Shown here one piece after another: positions 27,502-58,770 of a stretch of 64,000 bases of DNA. This stretch comes from an uncultured Bacilli bacterium (GTDB taxonomy: Bacteria > Bacillota_I > Bacilli_A > RF39 > UBA660): contig CANRDQ010000002.1 in the NCBI GenBank assembly GCA_947629395.1, positions 1 to 64,000 of the forward strand, written 5' to 3'. Both the position numbers and the translations under genes were made by a program. The notes below the pieces were generated by a model. That model made no database searches and was not told where the DNA came from. It saw only the letters and a program-made list of their open reading frames with translations. Position 1 is the stretch's first letter, and every line of letters begins with the position of its first letter.

Positions 27502-27576
27502 GCGGATGTAGTTTAGTGGTTAGAATACGGCCTTGCCAAGGCTGTGACGGGGATTCGATTTCCCTCATCCGCTCCA
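27502..27576 (+). tRNA. tRNA-Gly (GCC), host, prophage attachment target
   Basis: A 75-nt tRNA with acceptor GCGGATG/CATCCGC, anticodon loop TTGCCAA with GCC at 27535-27537, and encoded CCA. The integrase gene begins just after it on the opposite strand, so its 3' half is the likely integration site and was restored by the phage sequence. Confidence 0.95.
27540..27576 (+). other. Probable attL core in the tRNA-Gly 3' end
   Basis: Tyrosine integrases often use tRNA 3' ends, and the int gene is 76 bases away. A copy of this tRNA end is expected at the right prophage border, beyond the window. The exact core length cannot be set without attR. Confidence 0.55.
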
Positions 27577-27651: not shown

Positions 27652-28851
27652 TCATAAATTTATGTTCGGAATATAGAAATTATTTTGTTGTTCTATTAAT
27701 TTTTGATTAGCTTCTTCTAATACTTGATTATATATTTCTAAAGTCATTTTCATGCTATGACCTGCTTGTTTAGCAACTGCTGTTGGGTCTGCTTTATGAT
27801 AGAGTGAAGTTGAAATACCGGAGTGTCGATATTTATGATTGTGAAGTGTTTTTGTTATTCCTAACACTTTTTTTGCTTTCTGTGTTCTATTTCTTATACT
27901 ACTGCGATTGAAATATCCAGAATAGCCAAAAATAAGTTTGTCATCTTGGTATGTTCCATTTTTCTTTTCATCTTTTATTATTTTTTTTATAAAATTTGCG
28001 ATTTCATTTTCAAAATATACAAATCTAGTATTTCTAGTTTTTAGTGGAGTTAATTTTTTTGAATCTTTAGAGTAGCCTACATTCAAAAAAATAACATTAG
28101 ATGGGAATATGATTTTATCATAAGTTAAACCTTGAACTTCACCAATTCTCATATACAAAACATATTCAAAAATTAGCAGAAGCAAATCTTTTTTTCGATT
28201 TAACCTTTCATCTAACTTTTGTGCTATTTTTATTCTATTTGAAAAATAGTCACATATTTGTTTCCACTCTGTTTCTGAAATCGAAGGTTCTTTATTAATT
28301 TTATTCATATCTTTTATATTAAAAAAAGATTCTATATCGTCTCTATTAGGATATAATTTCCCAACCGTTTCTATTATGTTATATTTTAATCCACATTTAA
28401 AAACAGCATATTTAAACGTAGCATTTATATCGTTGTGCATTGAATTTATGTATCTAATATTAAGACCTTTTTCTAATAAACTTTGTTGCAAATTAATATA
28501 GTCATCTGTAGTTAGATTTCTAATATTTTTGTCTCCAATTACAGGTAAGATATGTATTTCGATTCTTCTTTTAATAGTAATATAAGTACTTTCACAGATT
28601 TTATTTCTTTTAAATTTATAATTAAGATAATCATAAAAGATATCTCTAAAAATAATAGGATAATTATTACTAATTTCTTTTTGATTTTTTGCTTTACTTT
28701 TTATCCTTACTTCTTCCTGTTGTGCTAGTTCTTTTCCTTTTCTTCCAACCCATTCTTTATTTCTTTTTGTAATTTGTTTAGAATTGCCAAAATCATCTTT
28801 GACATAGGTCTTTATAAAATACCGACCTTTTTTATCTTTGTAGACAGGCAT
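27652..28851 (-). CDS. int: Tyrosine recombinase/phage integrase
   Basis: A 399-residue site-specific recombinase that inserts and excises the prophage. The N-terminal arm-binding part (KGRYFIKTYVKDDFGN) is followed by a SAM-like core-binding domain (about 65-170) and the catalytic domain. Catalytic residues are Arg in YMRIGEVQGL, HKYRHSG (HxxR), the His in AGHSMKMT and the nucleophile Tyr in LEIYNQVL. Length and layout resemble Tn916-type integrases. It is transcribed toward the tRNA. Confidence 0.95.
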   Translation of the reverse strand: MPVYKDKKGRYFIKTYVKDDFGNSKQITKRNKEWVGRKGKELAQQEEVRIKSKAKNQKEISNNYPIIFRDIFYDYLNYKFKRNKICESTYITIKRRIEIHILPVIGDKNIRNLTTDDYINLQQSLLEKGLNIRYINSMHNDINATFKYAVFKCGLKYNIIETVGKLYPNRDDIESFFNIKDMNKINKEPSISETEWKQICDYFSNRIKIAQKLDERLNRKKDLLLLIFEYVLYMRIGEVQGLTYDKIIFPSNVIFLNVGYSKDSKKLTPLKTRNTRFVYFENEIANFIKKIIKDEKKNGTYQDDKLIFGYSGYFNRSSIRNRTQKAKKVLGITKTLHNHKYRHSGISTSLYHKADPTAVAKQAGHSMKMTLEIYNQVLEEANQKLIEQQNNFYIPNINL

Positions 28852-37869: not shown

Positions 37870-39234
37870 ATGAATAGATTAGAAAAAATATTATCAGAAA
37901 AGAAAACAGAAAATGGAGATATTTCCTATAAAACAACTGGAAATAACTTAACTGATTTAATGTTTTTAACAGCATTCTTTGAAAAACACTTAGACCAAGT
38001 TAAAATTGGTACAAGCGATAAAGAAAAACTATTTGCAATGTTTGTCAGAGATCCAAGATATGGACTTGGTAGACGTGACTTAGGACGTAAGTTAATGCAA
38101 CTTGCAAAAGTAGATGCACATGATATTGTAAAAGCAGGTAGATTTGATGATTTATGGAATATACCTACTGATTACAATTTAAATATTCTGAAATGTTTTT
38201 TAGATAAAAATGATTCACTTGCTAAAAAGTGGGCACCTAGACTTACTGGAAAAGACAAGGAAATTGCAAAGGCTTTATGTCAAGAATGGAATTTATCAGA
38301 AAAGGAATATCGTAAGTTAATAAAAACTGATAGTACAGTTGAATACAAACTTTCTTATGCAGAAGCAAAAACTAAAGAAAATACTCCATTAAATAAATTA
38401 TTCAAAGAATATGAATATAAACATCCTTTAGTAGATAAAATCGATTTTGAAAAAGTACCAAGCTTAGCAATGCACAAGTATCTGAAATGTTTTTCTACGA
38501 GAGAAGACATTAAAGATAGATTTAATGAGTATATACAAAAAGTTAAAGAAGATAAAGCAAAGATTAACACTTCTACTGCAAACGTGTATGATGCTTATAA
38601 AACAACAACACGTAGTGCAAAAGGATTAGAAGAAAATACGGAAGTAGTTGCTAAAAAAACTATTGATAATGCAACTCTTGGAGTAGAAATGAATGCTATA
38701 TGTATTCTTGATACTTCGGCTTCTATGGGGTTTGGAGATAATGTTTTAGAAAAGGCTATGTCTATAGCATATGCACTATCTACACATTCAACTTATGCGC
38801 CTAATCAGATAATATCATTTAGCTCAAGACCTAAACTTATGACTATTAAGGGAAAAACATTGAAAGAACAGTATGAGTCAATGTACACTGGAGATTGTTC
38901 TAGTACGGATTTTGCTAGAGTTATGAAACTTTTACAAAAATTAGAAACATATCCTGAATACTTAATAGTATTAAGTGATATGGAATTTGATATAGGTTCT
39001 AATCAAAGCAAAGAAGAAACTATGAAGTTATTTAAACAGCACGGTGCTGATACAAAAATAATTTGGTGGAATTTGAATGATAGAAATAAAACGGTTCCTG
39101 AGTTTGATGAATACGGAAATATTTATTTAAGTGGGTATAATTTGCAAATATTAAAGTTGTTAGAAAATAAATTTGATATGACAACTTATATAGATAAAAT
39201 TCTTGAAGATTACAGAAAAAAAGTAGGTAAATAA
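37870..39234 (+). CDS. Ro60-like RNA-binding protein (TROVE/DUF2828 plus vWA)
   Basis: A 454-residue protein. Residues 1 to about 260 form a helical-repeat domain with family-like blocks: FVRDPRYGLGRRDLGRKLM, RFDDLW, KKWAPRLTGKDKEIAKAL and KVPSLAMHKYLKCF. The C-terminal vWA domain has a complete metal site: DTSAS (Asp281), the Thr in GDCSSTDF (Thr346) and the Asp in VLSDMEFD (Asp370). Ro60 proteins bind Y RNAs and misfolded RNAs as a ring. AGAGG precedes the ATG. It is flanked by tRNA genes and three structured RNA units, which supports an RNA-binding role. Confidence 0.78.
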   Translation: MNRLEKILSEKKTENGDISYKTTGNNLTDLMFLTAFFEKHLDQVKIGTSDKEKLFAMFVRDPRYGLGRRDLGRKLMQLAKVDAHDIVKAGRFDDLWNIPTDYNLNILKCFLDKNDSLAKKWAPRLTGKDKEIAKALCQEWNLSEKEYRKLIKTDSTVEYKLSYAEAKTKENTPLNKLFKEYEYKHPLVDKIDFEKVPSLAMHKYLKCFSTREDIKDRFNEYIQKVKEDKAKINTSTANVYDAYKTTTRSAKGLEENTEVVAKKTIDNATLGVEMNAICILDTSASMGFGDNVLEKAMSIAYALSTHSTYAPNQIISFSSRPKLMTIKGKTLKEQYESMYTGDCSSTDFARVMKLLQKLETYPEYLIVLSDMEFDIGSNQSKEETMKLFKQHGADTKIIWWNLNDRNKTVPEFDEYGNIYLSGYNLQILKLLENKFDMTTYIDKILEDYRKKVGK

Positions 39235-39235
39235 T

Positions 39236-39361
39236 ATGACTAAAAGATTACATGGTGGGTCTAGCCCAGTAAGAGAAGCAAAATATAAAACACACTTTGA
39301 AAAGATAAGAGACCACTTAAAAAATGGAAATACAAATAAAAAGAAAAAGAATAAAAAATAA
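39236..39361 (+). CDS. Very small basic phage protein
   Basis: A 41-residue ORF starting just after the Ro60-like stop. MTKRLHGGSSPVREAKYKTH is followed by a Lys/Asn-only tail. Coupled translation with the Ro60-like gene is likely. Unknown function; a basic RNA-binding helper is possible. Confidence 0.5.
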   Translation: MTKRLHGGSSPVREAKYKTHFEKIRDHLKNGNTNKKKKNKK

Positions 39362-39365
39362 AATA

Positions 39366-39480
39366 AAAGCACATTACAGCAAACCGTTAGTGGTAAGACG
39401 TTTCATTGATACTGAAAAGATAGTTGGTTCGATTCCAACCCTATTAGTTAAAATAGGAAGTCGATTAATTAAAGTGCTTT
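39366..39480 (+). ncRNA. Y RNA-like/tRNA-like unit A
   Basis: A 115-nt unit closed by AAAGCAC (39366-39372) and GTGCTTT (39474-39480). ATTACAGCAA follows the 5' strand. Inside are tRNA-type arms: D-like CGTT/GACG with loop AGTGGTAA (39385-39400), an anticodon-like TTTCA/TGAAA with seven-base loop TTGATAC (39401-39417), a T arm GTTGG/CCAAC with loop TTCGATT (39423-39439), then a hairpin CCTATT/AATAGG (39440-39457). It has no normal acceptor stem and no CCA, so it is not an ordinary tRNA. Confidence 0.75.
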
Positions 39481-39504
39481 GTTACTTCTAAATAAGATAA
39501 AGTA

Positions 39505-39583
39505 AAAGGTCATACAGCAAAATAATAGCTATTAGAAAATGGTTCTAAAAAGCACACGATTGGTAAACGTGAAAAAGACCTTT
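39505..39583 (+). ncRNA. Y RNA-like/tRNA-like unit B
   Basis: A 79-nt unit closed by AAAGGTC (39505-39511) and GACCTTT (39577-39583). ATACAGCAA follows. Inside are AGC/GCT, TTAGA/TCTAA with a seven-base loop, and CACG/CGTG, a degenerate cloverleaf. The closing stem differs from unit A in two bases on both sides, so pairing is kept by compensating changes. Confidence 0.7.
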
Positions 39584-39604
39584 GTTATGAATATAAAATT
39601 AATT

Positions 39605-39705
39605 AAGCCCATTACAGCAACCAAAATAAAAAAGCTTGGATTAAACTAATTTATATATTAAATTACGTTAGGTACTAAAAATTTTAAAAATATTATAGAG
39701 GGCTT
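39605..39705 (+). ncRNA. Y RNA-like/tRNA-like unit C
   Basis: A 101-nt unit closed by AAGCCC (39605-39610) and GGGCTT (39700-39705). ATTACAGCAA follows. Inside are CCAA/TTGG (39621-39639) and TAATTTA/TAAATTA (39647-39665). After the 3' strand TTTGC could pair with GCAA of the conserved motif; the corresponding TTTGT in units A and B would give a G-U there. Confidence 0.68.
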
Positions 39706-39784
39706 TGCAAAAAAAATATAATATTTAAATAAAATTTTTATAGAAAAGACGTTTTTTATAAGACGCCTTTTTATTTGGAGAAAA

Positions 39785-51385: not shown

Positions 51386-52009
51386 ATGTTAAAAAAAGAA
51401 ATTTATCCTAAAACTAAAAGACTTAGCTGCTTAGGAGATAAAATTTATGTAACCGAAAAATTAGATGGAAGTAACTTATGTATATTTAAGAAAAAAGGAA
51501 AACTTTATATAGCTCAGAGAAAGACTATTTTATCAATAGACGAGTTTGAAACCAATAGAGATATCTTTTATAAAGGACTATATTCGTGGATTAACGAATA
51601 CAAAGCAGAACTACAAGAAAAATTACATGATAATGCTGTTTTATGTGGTGAATGGCTTGGTATGGGCAAGTTAAAGTACCCTGTAGATGAATTTGATAAA
51701 AGATTTTATATGTTTGCAAAAGGAAATATTGATGATGATTTTAATTTATATAATATTCATTATGATCATAACTTATTTATTTATCCTTTTTTAGACCAAA
51801 CAATACCGTTTTATATCGGGATTGTACCAGAAGTAACGCAGTTAATAGCACTACCGAATAAAGAACATTTAGATAGTATATATAGTAAATATTGTGATAA
51901 AGTAAAACGTGATGTGGAAGGCTTTATTGTTAATTATAAAGATAATATTACTAAATATGTTAGAATGAAAAATGGAAAGTTACAAGAACATTTTGATAGA
52001 GGAGAATAA
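51386..52009 (+). CDS. RNA ligase family protein (Rnl2/DRB0094-like)
   Basis: A 207-residue nucleotidyltransferase. Motif I YVTEKLDGSN has the nucleophile Lys25. IAQRK lies after it, CGEWLGMGKL and KRFYMFAKG stand at motif III/IIIa positions, VEGFIVNY is motif IV and KYVRMKN is motif V. It should join RNA 3'-OH and 5'-phosphate ends with ATP. AAAGGA precedes the ATG. It lies 250 bases before RtcB, so both RNA-sealing chemistries are in one operon. Confidence 0.87.
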   Translation: MLKKEIYPKTKRLSCLGDKIYVTEKLDGSNLCIFKKKGKLYIAQRKTILSIDEFETNRDIFYKGLYSWINEYKAELQEKLHDNAVLCGEWLGMGKLKYPVDEFDKRFYMFAKGNIDDDFNLYNIHYDHNLFIYPFLDQTIPFYIGIVPEVTQLIALPNKEHLDSIYSKYCDKVKRDVEGFIVNYKDNITKYVRMKNGKLQEHFDRGE

Positions 52010-52257
52010 TGAAAGAATTTATTTATGATTTGGCATTTGGGATTTTTTTTATAATTGTTTTATTTTTAGTTTTTTTGGGATTTTTGTATGGCTGTTTTTA
52101 TTTTGTTTTTTTGTTAAATTCAGGAACCTATGAATACGTTGACTTAGATAATAAAAAAGGCACTGCTGTGTACTGTGAGCCTAATGATTCATTACAATTA
52201 TGTCAAAAAAAAGATGGAACAATTGTGAGTGTAAAAAAGTATAAAAGGTTAAAATAA
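52009..52257 (+). CDS. Small membrane protein between the two RNA ligases
   Basis: An 82-residue protein with one long hydrophobic stretch (residues 8-36) and a soluble tail with two Cys. It overlaps both ligase genes by one base, so the three are translated as a set. Unknown. Confidence 0.58.
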   Translation: MKEFIYDLAFGIFFIIVLFLVFLGFLYGCFYFVFLLNSGTYEYVDLDNKKGTAVYCEPNDSLQLCQKKDGTIVSVKKYKRLK

Positions 52258-53534
52258 TGAAAAACTTAAAAATTTTTACTAATAATATCGAAAAAACAGC
52301 ATTAGAACAAATAAATTTGTTACTAGAACAAGAACCGTTTAAGGAAAGTAAAGTCAGAATAATGCCTGATGTTCATGCTGGTGCAGGTTGTGTAATAGGA
52401 TTTACTGGTAATTTAGGCAATAAAGTTATTCCGAATGTAGTTGGTGTTGATATTGGTTGTGGAATGCTAGTTGTTGAATTAGGTAATATTGATATTGATT
52501 TAGATAAACTTGATAAAGTTATACATGAATTTGTTCCTAGCGGTAGAAATGTTCATGAAAAACAAAAATATAAGTTTTTGGAAATGGAACAATTATATTG
52601 TTTAGACCAGCTAAAAAATAAAGATAATTGGTTAGAAAAATCAGTAGGAACTTTAGGTGGTGGAAATCACTTCATAGAGGTTGATATTGACGAAGACAAT
52701 AATAAATATTTAGTAATTCATACAGGCTCAAGAAATTTAGGAAAACAAGTTGCTGAAATTTATCAAGAAAAAGCAATAGAATATTGTTCATATAAAAAAG
52801 AAATGCAAGAAGAAAAAAATAAAATTATTAAAGAATATAGAAAACAAGGAAAACAAAAAGAAATCGAAAATGCATTAATTGAAATAGATAAAAAATATTA
52901 TGGCAAAACTAAACTTCCTAAGGATTTATGTTATCTAGAAGGAAAAGATAGAGAAGATTATTTACATGATATGAATCTATGCCAAGAATTTGCTAAAGAT
53001 AATCGTTTATGTATTGCTAAACAAATATTATGCAATTACTTTGAGGTTCCATACTATAAAGATTGTTTTAGTGTTAGATTAAGAGAAAAACCTAATGAAC
53101 CATCATTTTTTACACAAGATTATGTTGAACATGATTTTTGGTATTTTCAATGTGTTCACAATTATATAAACTTTGAAGATAATATTGTTCGTAAGGGTTC
53201 TATTTCAGCAAGACTAGGAGAGGAAGTTATAATTCCTATTAATATGCGTGATGGCTGTATTATTGGAATAGGCAAAGGCAATGATGACTGGAATCAGTCT
53301 GCACCACATGGAGCTGGAAGAATTATGTCAAGAATGAAAGCAAAAGAACTTATCAATATAGAAGACTACAAGAAATCTATGGAAGGTATTTATTCAACTT
53401 CTGTAAATGAGAATACTATTGATGAAGCTCCTATGGCATATAAATCTGCACAGGAAATTATAAACAATATCAAAGATACTGTTCGTGTAGTTAAAATAAT
53501 AAAACCAATATATAATTTTAAAGCAGAAAATTAA
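52257..53534 (+). CDS. rtcB: RtcB-type RNA ligase
   Basis: A 425-residue RtcB family ligase, which joins 2',3'-cyclic-phosphate (or 3'-phosphate) and 5'-OH RNA ends with GTP and Mn2+. Metal and guanylate ligands are seen in MPDVHAGAGCVIGFT, GVDIGCGM (Cys), GGGNHFIEVD, IHTGSRNLG and SAPHGAGRIMSR (the guanylated His). Length is typical. Such ends are made by anticodon nucleases, so tRNA repair is the likely job. In some bacteria rtcB is in one operon with a Ro60 homologue and Y RNA. Confidence 0.95.
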   Translation: MKNLKIFTNNIEKTALEQINLLLEQEPFKESKVRIMPDVHAGAGCVIGFTGNLGNKVIPNVVGVDIGCGMLVVELGNIDIDLDKLDKVIHEFVPSGRNVHEKQKYKFLEMEQLYCLDQLKNKDNWLEKSVGTLGGGNHFIEVDIDEDNNKYLVIHTGSRNLGKQVAEIYQEKAIEYCSYKKEMQEEKNKIIKEYRKQGKQKEIENALIEIDKKYYGKTKLPKDLCYLEGKDREDYLHDMNLCQEFAKDNRLCIAKQILCNYFEVPYYKDCFSVRLREKPNEPSFFTQDYVEHDFWYFQCVHNYINFEDNIVRKGSISARLGEEVIIPINMRDGCIIGIGKGNDDWNQSAPHGAGRIMSRMKAKELINIEDYKKSMEGIYSTSVNENTIDEAPMAYKSAQEIINNIKDTVRVVKIIKPIYNFKAEN

Positions 53535-58306: not shown

Positions 58307-58380
58307 AAGTTGATAGTGTAATGGTAACACAATGGTCTCCAAAACCATCAATCTAAGTTCGAATCTTAGTCGGCTTGCCA
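58307..58380 (+). tRNA. tRNA-Trp (CCA), phage
   Basis: 74 nt; acceptor AAGTTGA/TCGGCTT (two G-U), anticodon loop CTCCAAA with CCA at 58339-58341, encoded CCA end. Confidence 0.92.
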
Positions 58381-58382
58381 AT

Positions 58383-58456
58383 GAGATATTAATTTAATGG
58401 TAGAATATTAGTCTTCCAAACTAAAAGTGTCAGTTCAACTCTGATATATCTCTCCA
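58383..58456 (+). tRNA. tRNA-Gly (TCC), phage
   Basis: 74 nt; acceptor GAGATAT/ATATCTC, anticodon loop CTTCCAA with TCC at 58415-58417, encoded CCA. The T loop TTCAACT is normal. Confidence 0.92.
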
Positions 58457-58457
58457 T

Positions 58458-58534
58458 CTGATGTTAGCCTAATTTGGTAAGGCACTTGTTTTGGGAACAA
58501 GAGATTAGAGGTTCAAATCCTTTACATCAGACCA
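58458..58534 (+). tRNA. tRNA-Pro (TGG), phage
   Basis: 77 nt; acceptor CTGATGT/ACATCAG, anticodon loop TTTGGGA with TGG at 58492-58494, encoded CCA. It could decode CCN, including the CCC of the capsid frameshift site. Confidence 0.92.
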
Positions 58535-58542
58535 ATGATTTT

Positions 58543-58617
58543 GCTCTGTTAGACAAGAGGTTAAGTCATGCGACTTTCTATCGCATATCATCAGTTCGAA
58601 TCTGATACAGAGAACCA
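58543..58617 (+). tRNA. tRNA-Glu (TTC), phage, unusual
   Basis: 75 nt; acceptor GCTCTGT/ACAGAGA has a G-A first pair. Anticodon loop CTTTCTA with TTC at 58576-58578; position 37 is T instead of the usual A. D and T arms are normal; encoded CCA. Confidence 0.85.
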
Positions 58618-58620
58618 AAT

Positions 58621-58695
58621 TGTCGTTTAGCCAAGCGGTAAGGCATCAGACTTTGGATCTGATAAGCCCTAGTTCGAATCTAGGAACGACAGCCA
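58621..58695 (+). tRNA. tRNA-Gln (TTG), phage
   Basis: 75 nt; acceptor TGTCGTT/AACGACA, anticodon loop CTTTGGA with TTG at 58653-58655, encoded CCA. Confidence 0.93.
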
Positions 58696-58696
58696 T

Positions 58697-58770
58697 GTAT
58701 CTTTAGCCAAATAGTAAGGCAATAGTTTGCAAAACTATGATTATAGGTGCAACTCCTATAAGATACTCCA
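58697..58770 (+). tRNA. tRNA-Cys (GCA), phage
   Basis: 74 nt; acceptor GTATCTT/AAGATAC, anticodon loop TTGCAAA with GCA at 58729-58731, encoded CCA. The T loop is TGCAACT, so position 55 is G instead of the near-universal T, and the D loop AAATAGTAA has a single G where GG is usual. Confidence 0.88.

Follow-up and report, generated by a model that had tools for sequence, protein, structure and literature searches.

The window, a 64,000-nucleotide stretch of DNA from an uncultured Bacilli bacterium (contig CANRDQ010000002.1, positions 1 to 64,000), carries in a prophage a gene for a Ro60-like protein of 454 amino acids with a DUF2828 helical domain and a von Willebrand factor A (vWA) domain (37870..39234, forward strand). 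The protein is the predicted binder of three tandem RNA units, whose array spans 131 to 471 bases past the Ro60 stop codon. An earlier note made from the letters of this DNA had proposed that protein and array form a phage Ro60-Y RNA particle, and the results below are set against its claims where they bear on them.

In Pfam the window protein matched DUF2828 (E 5.5e-11) and the vWA-type family DUF7788 (E 5.3e-14), with sub-threshold matches to vWA_Ro60 and VWA_2; TROVE (PF05731) was absent from its matches in a scan up to E 1. When the predicted structure was compared with the PDB using Foldseek, all 11 matches at E <= 0.001 were Ro60/TROVE proteins, the opposite of the structure-search outcome that the earlier note had named as refuting TROVE/DUF2828 membership. 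The model contains the helical-repeat ring and vWA domain of Ro60, and by prediction the window protein has the Ro60 fold. Residues D281, S283, S285, T346 and D370 are invariant across 53 aligned sequences, the window included; we take these to be the predicted vWA metal-site residues, and the site thus appears complete. The phage-borne Ro60-like protein of the earlier note is supported, and so is its complete set of predicted metal-site residues.

The first RNA unit (39366..39481, forward strand) is Y RNA-like, and its interior can be read as a tRNA circularly permuted by a break in the D loop. Its closing stem, AAAGCAC (39366-39372) paired with GTGCTTT (39474-39480) on the forward strand, has directly behind its 5′ arm the ATTACAGCAA box (39373..39382, forward strand), a predicted part of the Ro60-binding element. 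Inside lie a D stem (39397-39399/39460-39462, read by eye), an anticodon arm (39401-39417) with anticodon GAU at 39408-39410, a T arm (39423-39439) and, directly behind the T arm, an acceptor hairpin of 6 base pairs (39440-39445/39452-39457). The anticodon loop, TTGATAC, has U33 and A37, and the unit gave a partial match of 31.1 bits to the Rfam tRNA model and 47.7 bits to model R1. Unit 2 (39505..39584, forward strand; 27.8 bits with model R1) is closed by AAAGGTC (39505-39511) and GACCTTT (39577-39583), also on the forward strand, and contains two inner hairpins and no T arm. Unit 3 (39605..39705, forward strand) has an AU-rich interior closed by the forward-strand arms AAGCCC (39605-39610) and GGGCTT (39700-39705). 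With a stem of 6 base pairs and a folding z of -0.80, as against -1.88 for unit 1 and -2.85 for unit 2, it is the weakest of the three.

The tandem arrangement of three units downstream of the Ro60 gene was borne out, with 131 bases between stop codon and unit 1, as was the motif AT(T)ACAGCAA, found right behind the 5′ arm in all three. The TTTG reported behind each 3′ strand proved to be mostly the 3′ arm itself plus one G. The description of unit 1 as having D-, anticodon- and T-like arms stands, but its supposed lack of an acceptor does not, because the 6-base-pair hairpin directly behind the T arm supplies one and the unit has all four arms of a permuted tRNA.

To place these units among their relatives we drew loci from viral contigs and species genomes, using loci that share one Ro60 gene start only once and setting aside five overlapping loci found by pattern. 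The resulting close set comprised 42 loci, the window among them. The finder used for this close set demands paired arms, C[AT]GCA and TTG. It placed units downstream of Ro60 in 40 of the 42 loci, 139 units altogether, compared with 0-7 in shuffles that kept the motif; since pairing is demanded by the finder, these shuffles are the test of chance. The two remaining loci were L029, with no unit in its 443 nucleotides of downstream sequence, and L053, with upstream units only; upstream candidates of L005, L014 and L053 were left out of the 139. Loci carry one to six units (mode four), separated by a median gap of 21 bases. Two further observations concern the Ro60 genes themselves: that of Staphylococcus phage S-CoN_Ph14 (L074 2989-4499) is annotated as two overlapping reading frames, and contig CALVKK010000001.1, from a metagenome-assembled genome (MAG), has two Ro60 loci (L066, L067) about 36 kb apart, for which two prophages or a duplication are possible.

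The arms of the closing stem pair at all seven positions in 137 of the 139 units, compared with 7.6% after random re-pairing between units, and several pair types occur at each of pairs 3-7, which bears out the covarying closing stem that the earlier note expected in relatives. Three to five bases past the stem of 7 base pairs stands a C[AT]GCAA box, present in 133 of 139 units and replaced by CAGCAT or CAGCAG in the remaining six. Stems within an array tend to differ from one another: identical stems were seen in 1 of 193 pairs of units from the same locus where 8.8 were expected, a value reached in 2 of 2000 permutations. Near-identical units are present in the set, and the results stand on 107 non-redundant units (full stems in 105/107, acceptor hairpins in 28/53, and 59 hairpins with 7-nucleotide loops versus 13.4). 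The units share the general features of Y RNAs in being encoded beside a Ro60 gene and in having 5′ and 3′ ends that pair into a conserved basal stem.

Of an initial 141 units, among them two from Lak phages, 71 had a recognisable T-arm core; with a looser test the figure was 73 of the 139. In 38 of these 73 the T arm leads straight into an acceptor-like hairpin, compared with a mean of 8.2 and a maximum of 14 in 50 shuffles of the tails, and the two bases behind it are TA in 33 units, AA in three and TG in two, as at tRNA positions 8-9. These units have what a circularly permuted tRNA would be expected to have, an acceptor hairpin behind the T arm followed by positions 8-9 and a D stem. When the 73 units were sorted by a script with simple rules, under which single assignments may be wrong, 30 had the normal tRNA order, 15 the order anticodon-T-acceptor-D, 12 T-acceptor-D without an anticodon arm, eight an opened D loop and three T-acceptor-D-anticodon, with five unclear. 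An alignment of 23 units with T-acceptor-D order (L003_u2 together with 22 of the 27 in the two groups of that order, the other five being left out) showed pairing in 95.8% of cells, changes on both sides in 18 of 23 pairs and a covariation score of 0.697 versus 0.179, and RNAalifold recovered the same helices unaided. Among the eight units opened in the D loop, which include window unit 1, 95.0% of cells pair and both bases vary in 17 of 25 pairs, the window row lying one column out of register at the D stem. These covariation counts exclude alignments of 16 normal-order units and of 38/50 short units. ARAGORN called tRNAs in 12 of 141 linear units and in 22 of 141 doubled interiors, compared with none in ten shuffles of each; as a test of permutation this is strict, and it caught only 10 extra units. 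One embedded, unpermuted tRNA scored 63.6 bits in Rfam.

The 66 units without a T arm contain 79 hairpins with 7-nucleotide loops, versus 16.5 in shuffles, and 52 of these loops have U at the second place (U33), versus 35% in shuffles; 5- and 9-nucleotide loops are mildly enriched too. Recurring loops are CTTTTAA (Lys UUU), TTTGGGA (Pro UGG) and CTGTTAA (Asn GUU), the identities being assigned by anticodon. Over all units, canonical anticodon hairpins number 79 in 69 of 139 units, compared with a null mean of 3.1; the same 69 of 139, window unit 1 among them, have the intact anticodon loop with U33 and purine 37 that a decoy would need. The anticodons are biased: when expectations are calculated from the codons used in 26 genes of the window prophage, Pro stands at 15 versus 2.1 expected and Gly at 0 versus 4.3. 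At the level of sequence, the interiors are shown to be exchangeable and tRNA-like, and include normal-order tRNAs, circularly permuted tRNAs and anticodon-type stem-loops. That one handle carries tRNAs permuted in several ways suggests conservation of tRNA shape rather than of chain order. It could be argued that the units are decayed tRNA genes or debris of a tRNA array that happens to lie beside a Ro60 gene, with no ribonucleoprotein involved, since phage tRNA genes are close by and many interiors score as tRNA. Decay of this kind leaves unaccounted for a closing stem and permuted helices that covary, as well as units that lack any T arm and retain the closing element, and we regard it as very improbable.

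The closing element can itself lead to Ro60 genes. A 17-base pattern built from window unit 2 and two relatives found nine viral stretches, eight of them with Ro60, four of the eight being contigs already known from the search for relatives; the ninth (L012) was rejected as a chance match inside the coding frame of another phage's gene, with no closing arm. The looser pattern AAGNCACNTACAGCAAA gave at least 123 sites in newly fetched loci, and a complementary 3′ arm plus G was present at 55 of those listed. Ro60 lay less than 3 kb from 22 of these listed arm-bearing sites and farther from one, and was absent from the piece examined at 32. Among the matches listed, 16 of the 22 nearby Ro60 proteins were nearest to a distant query and six to that of the window, and 17 of the 32 arm-bearing contigs encode DUF2828 elsewhere, most of these being large contigs. 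Listed sites without the arm had Ro60 nearby in 1 of 62 (counting sites that were long enough), and DUF2828 was encoded on 2 of the 32 such contigs checked. One identical unit recurs in five of the 32 arm-bearing loci (L115, L130, L175, L185 and L214), and some arm-bearing sites found from DNA only (L206, L176) resemble coding sequence, with no DUF2828 on the contig. A second pattern gave nine sites in new loci, seven with the arm and all seven beside Ro60 (five on contigs already known), while a third gave 10 sites of which none passed the strict arm test of 7 base pairs and three were near Ro60.

We also assembled a distant set of 16 loci with Ro60 at 22-40% identity. Because the finder requiring TTG missed the units of the Listeria phage, the mycobacteriophage, Campylobacter and Felixounavirus, it was relaxed to G for this set, which lets in some chance matches; it found 36 candidate units in 13 of the 16 loci, versus 2-9 in controls. 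The unit-bearing loci belong to three Lak megaphages, Fusobacterium, Sinorhizobium, Campylobacter, Staphylococcus, Felixounavirus, a mycobacteriophage, Listeria A511, a Subdoligranulum plasmid, Klebsiella KP2025 and Enterococcus iF6. Units spanning more than 150 nucleotides (L019, L021, L076, L080) are doubtful, and single units, such as that of L071, could be due to chance. KVP40, an uncultured 484-kb phage and XbC2 (L079, L082 and L083) gave no unit with the relaxed finder. A covariance model built from 23 close-set units only detected units in several loci of the distant set: Enterococcus at E 1e-11, Klebsiella at 2e-9, Felixounavirus at 2e-7, the mycobacteriophage at 9e-7 and Sinorhizobium at 2e-6. 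Staphylococcus units matched weakly (E 0.006-0.1), and stretches of tRNA, such as that in the window's tRNA array at 58391, reached E 0.04-0.05. The outer bases of the closing stem look phage-specific, with AGACC in Felixounavirus (L075 4728-5943), AAGAA in Enterococcus (L081 1631-2215) and AGAAG in two Klebsiella units (L080 4643-4967), as though recognised by the Ro60 of the phage concerned. At the level of sequence, the two surveys show that the closing stem covaries, that ACAGCAA follows 3-5 bases on and that the units stay with Ro60 across very different phages.

The units of distant phages are short and have few recognised inner modules, as might be expected if they were guide or lid RNAs that regulate access to a Ro60 ring handling misfolded or damaged phage and host RNA, with interiors left to drift. 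The interiors are not free to drift, however, since pairs of the T arm, acceptor, D arm and anticodon arm covary, and 7-nucleotide loops are enriched. We consider this explanation improbable, if less so than tRNA debris.

The integrase gene of the element (27652..28851, reverse strand) adjoins a tRNA-Gly gene (27502-27576), which marks the element as a prophage. Farther along it encodes an RNA ligase (51386..52009, forward strand; PF09414, E 3.4e-14) and the RNA ligase RtcB (52257..53534, forward strand; PF01139, E 3e-57), each a possible tRNA-repair partner; the two genes are adjacent (51386-53534). Six phage tRNA genes (Trp, Gly, Pro, Glu, Gln and Cys) form one array at 58307-58770 behind a portal-like gene (identified by eye). 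Reading by eye also revealed a small basic open reading frame of 41 codons (39236-39361) between the Ro60 gene and unit 1, and a hairpin followed by a T run (39744-39772) past unit 3, a possible end of the array transcript that the terminator scan did not list. No convincing promoter was found for the window array, with 10 promoter-like sites versus 12.5 in shuffles. Across the close set, TATAAT occurs within 40 nucleotides of the first unit in 21 of 40 loci, versus 5% when positions in these loci were drawn at random without matching for composition.

Taken together, it is fairly probable that the window encodes a predicted Ro60-fold protein and three likely small-RNA units on a shared closing element, the first a permuted tRNA, and that their complex would show tRNA mimics to tRNA-acting enzymes. 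The closing stem and ACAGCAA would be the handle held by Ro60 and the interior the effector module. This division of labour is drawn by analogy with YrlA, which, according to PMC8394870, binds Rsr by its basal stem and has a tRNA-like domain that is bound by PNPase and modified by DusA and TruB. Least certain is what the modules would do: they may draw host anticodon nucleases and other tRNA-cleaving defences off real tRNAs, or alternatively tether these enzymes, together with RNA ligases, to the Ro60 ring, the array acting alongside the RtcB, RNA ligase and tRNA genes that the prophage itself carries. The Rsr, Y RNA and RtcB genes of Salmonella lie in one operon, which responds to tRNA cleavage, and the authors name inhibition of nucleases as one possible role of the tRNA-like domain but add that YrlA itself is not cleaved (PMC7790460). 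Phage tRNAs are reported, in PMC11555353 and PMC12409363, to evade tRNA-cleaving defences, retrons and PARIS. It is on account of the prophage's RtcB, ligase and tRNA genes, the Salmonella operon and these defence-evading tRNAs that we favour a role as decoy or tether, aimed at anticodon nucleases and enzymes of repair.

The same YrlA binding pattern, and the order that T-acceptor-D interiors share with YrlA, would equally suit an ordinary effector tether as in RYPER, in which Ro60 holds the closing stem while the tRNA-like module brings in an RNase or a tRNA-modifying enzyme of the cell for the decay or sorting of structured RNA, and the anticodons are inherited ornament. Such a tether leaves unexplained why anticodons differ within one array and why there are units with only anticodon-type stem-loops with U33 alongside whole normal-order tRNAs, and we judge it possible but on the unlikely side. 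Y RNAs beside cellular TROVE genes have a bearing on this choice. In three of four such loci (L234, L236 and L237), all from a single phylum, to which a Clostridiaceae MAG also belongs, an anticodon arm with loop CTGTTAA precedes T arm, acceptor and D arm, so this order is not phage-specific. Two of the three (L234, L236) have an outer stem CCGAGG/CCTCGG, and no stem-ACAGCAA handle was seen around the tRNA-like part in any of the three.

Several points weigh against the presentation of tRNA mimics by a Ro60 particle, and against decoys in particular. The order found beside cellular TROVE genes fits a general tether as well as a decoy. Pairing of the stem and its outer AA are partly built into the close set by a finder that demands a paired arm and TTG. 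The minimum-energy fold of unit 1 differs from the tRNA fold, a canonical anticodon loop is missing from window units 2 and 3, and among distant units without a recognised T arm a canonical anticodon hairpin was present in 3 of 22. Searches of 35 records from relatives turned up RtcB in five and RNA ligase in eight, only 12 records having either, a count without a baseline in which many records are fragments. With these points taken into account, the most likely reading of the sequences is still a phage Ro60-Y RNA particle that would present tRNA mimics as decoys or tethers. A wider proposal is decidedly more tentative: that phages of many host phyla deploy a Ro60 decoy particle with orthogonal units, each a handle bearing a swappable mimic of a tRNA or anticodon loop in any circular permutation, which would soak up anticodon nucleases and feed cut RNA to phage ligases. 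Taken strictly, the decoy is possible but more likely wrong than right.

Bacterial Y RNAs are thinly understood, and those of phages are known mainly as candidates. One recognisable handle, a stem of 7 base pairs, ACAGCAA, the 3′ arm and G, makes Y RNA-like units searchable across phages of very different hosts, and the bias of their anticodons, with Pro over-represented and Gly under-represented, makes a link between the Ro60 particle and tRNA-targeting immunity directly testable.

Of known RNAs, YrlA (RF02553) is the nearest kin, being likewise encoded beside a Ro60-type gene, with 5′ and 3′ ends that pair and, as in many of the interiors described here, a T arm-acceptor hairpin-D arm module. 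That module is found in 27 units of relatives, whereas window unit 1 is opened elsewhere. We rejected YrlA as the family to which the units belong. None of 44 records reached its gathering score of 69 bits (best 48.3), nor did any of four in a smaller set, and a search with the window units at E <= 10 gave no YrlA match. The basal helices are not matched either: in the L035 alignment the inner basal helix of YrlA (7 pairs) is unformed and its outer helix falls on bases other than the closing stem. The phage arrays differ further in being tandem sets of one to six different units and in including other permutations, unpermuted tRNAs and units with only anticodon-type hairpins. A class-wide scan of 395 genomes gave weak YrlA matches in 167, none over the cut-off, and such matches alone are no evidence since 6-7 of 14 control genomes also match. 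The claim of an RNA type of its own, distinct from YrlA, thus holds for the closing element and is too strong for the whole, given that T-acceptor-D interiors of relatives match the YrlA model at up to 48.3 bits, below its cut-off.

It is weakened further by Y RNAs of mycobacteriophages that were already published (Chen 2014), as cited in PMC12282133. That source also describes, in Listeria phage CKA15, three strongly transcribed regions lying no more than 2 kb upstream of an Rsr homologue that are suggested to be Y RNAs, and reports the Rsr homologue itself in virions. Similar arrangements were found here: mycobacteriophage Rumpelstiltskin has three ACAGCAA units behind its Ro-like gene (one identified by eye), and Listeria phage A511 (L077 2249-2512) has three just before its Ro60 gene. 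Phage Ro60 proteins are known as well (PMC7824862 and PMC7765460) and also appear in PDB titles; a search of open-licence papers found none joining Thermus phage and Ro60. In its alignments with Ro60/Rsr (TROVE) proteins, including that of Thermus phage phiLo (PDB 9l5y), the window protein shows 11-13% identity, and it differs from them in matching Pfam DUF2828/DUF7788 instead of TROVE.

The proposed decoy resembles the counter-defence by phage tRNAs described in PMC11555353 and PMC12409363. The words decoy, tRNA mimic, sponge and cleaves do not occur in PMC11555353. The tRNAs of those systems are working tRNAs, whereas permuted and anticodon-only units look unable to be charged as ordinary tRNAs. 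Our search of the open-licence literature found no published phage Y RNAs of permuted or anticodon-only type. As far as this search extends, what is new in the phage units is the shared handle, the several circular permutations that it carries, the anticodon-only units and their arrangement in tandem orthogonal arrays.

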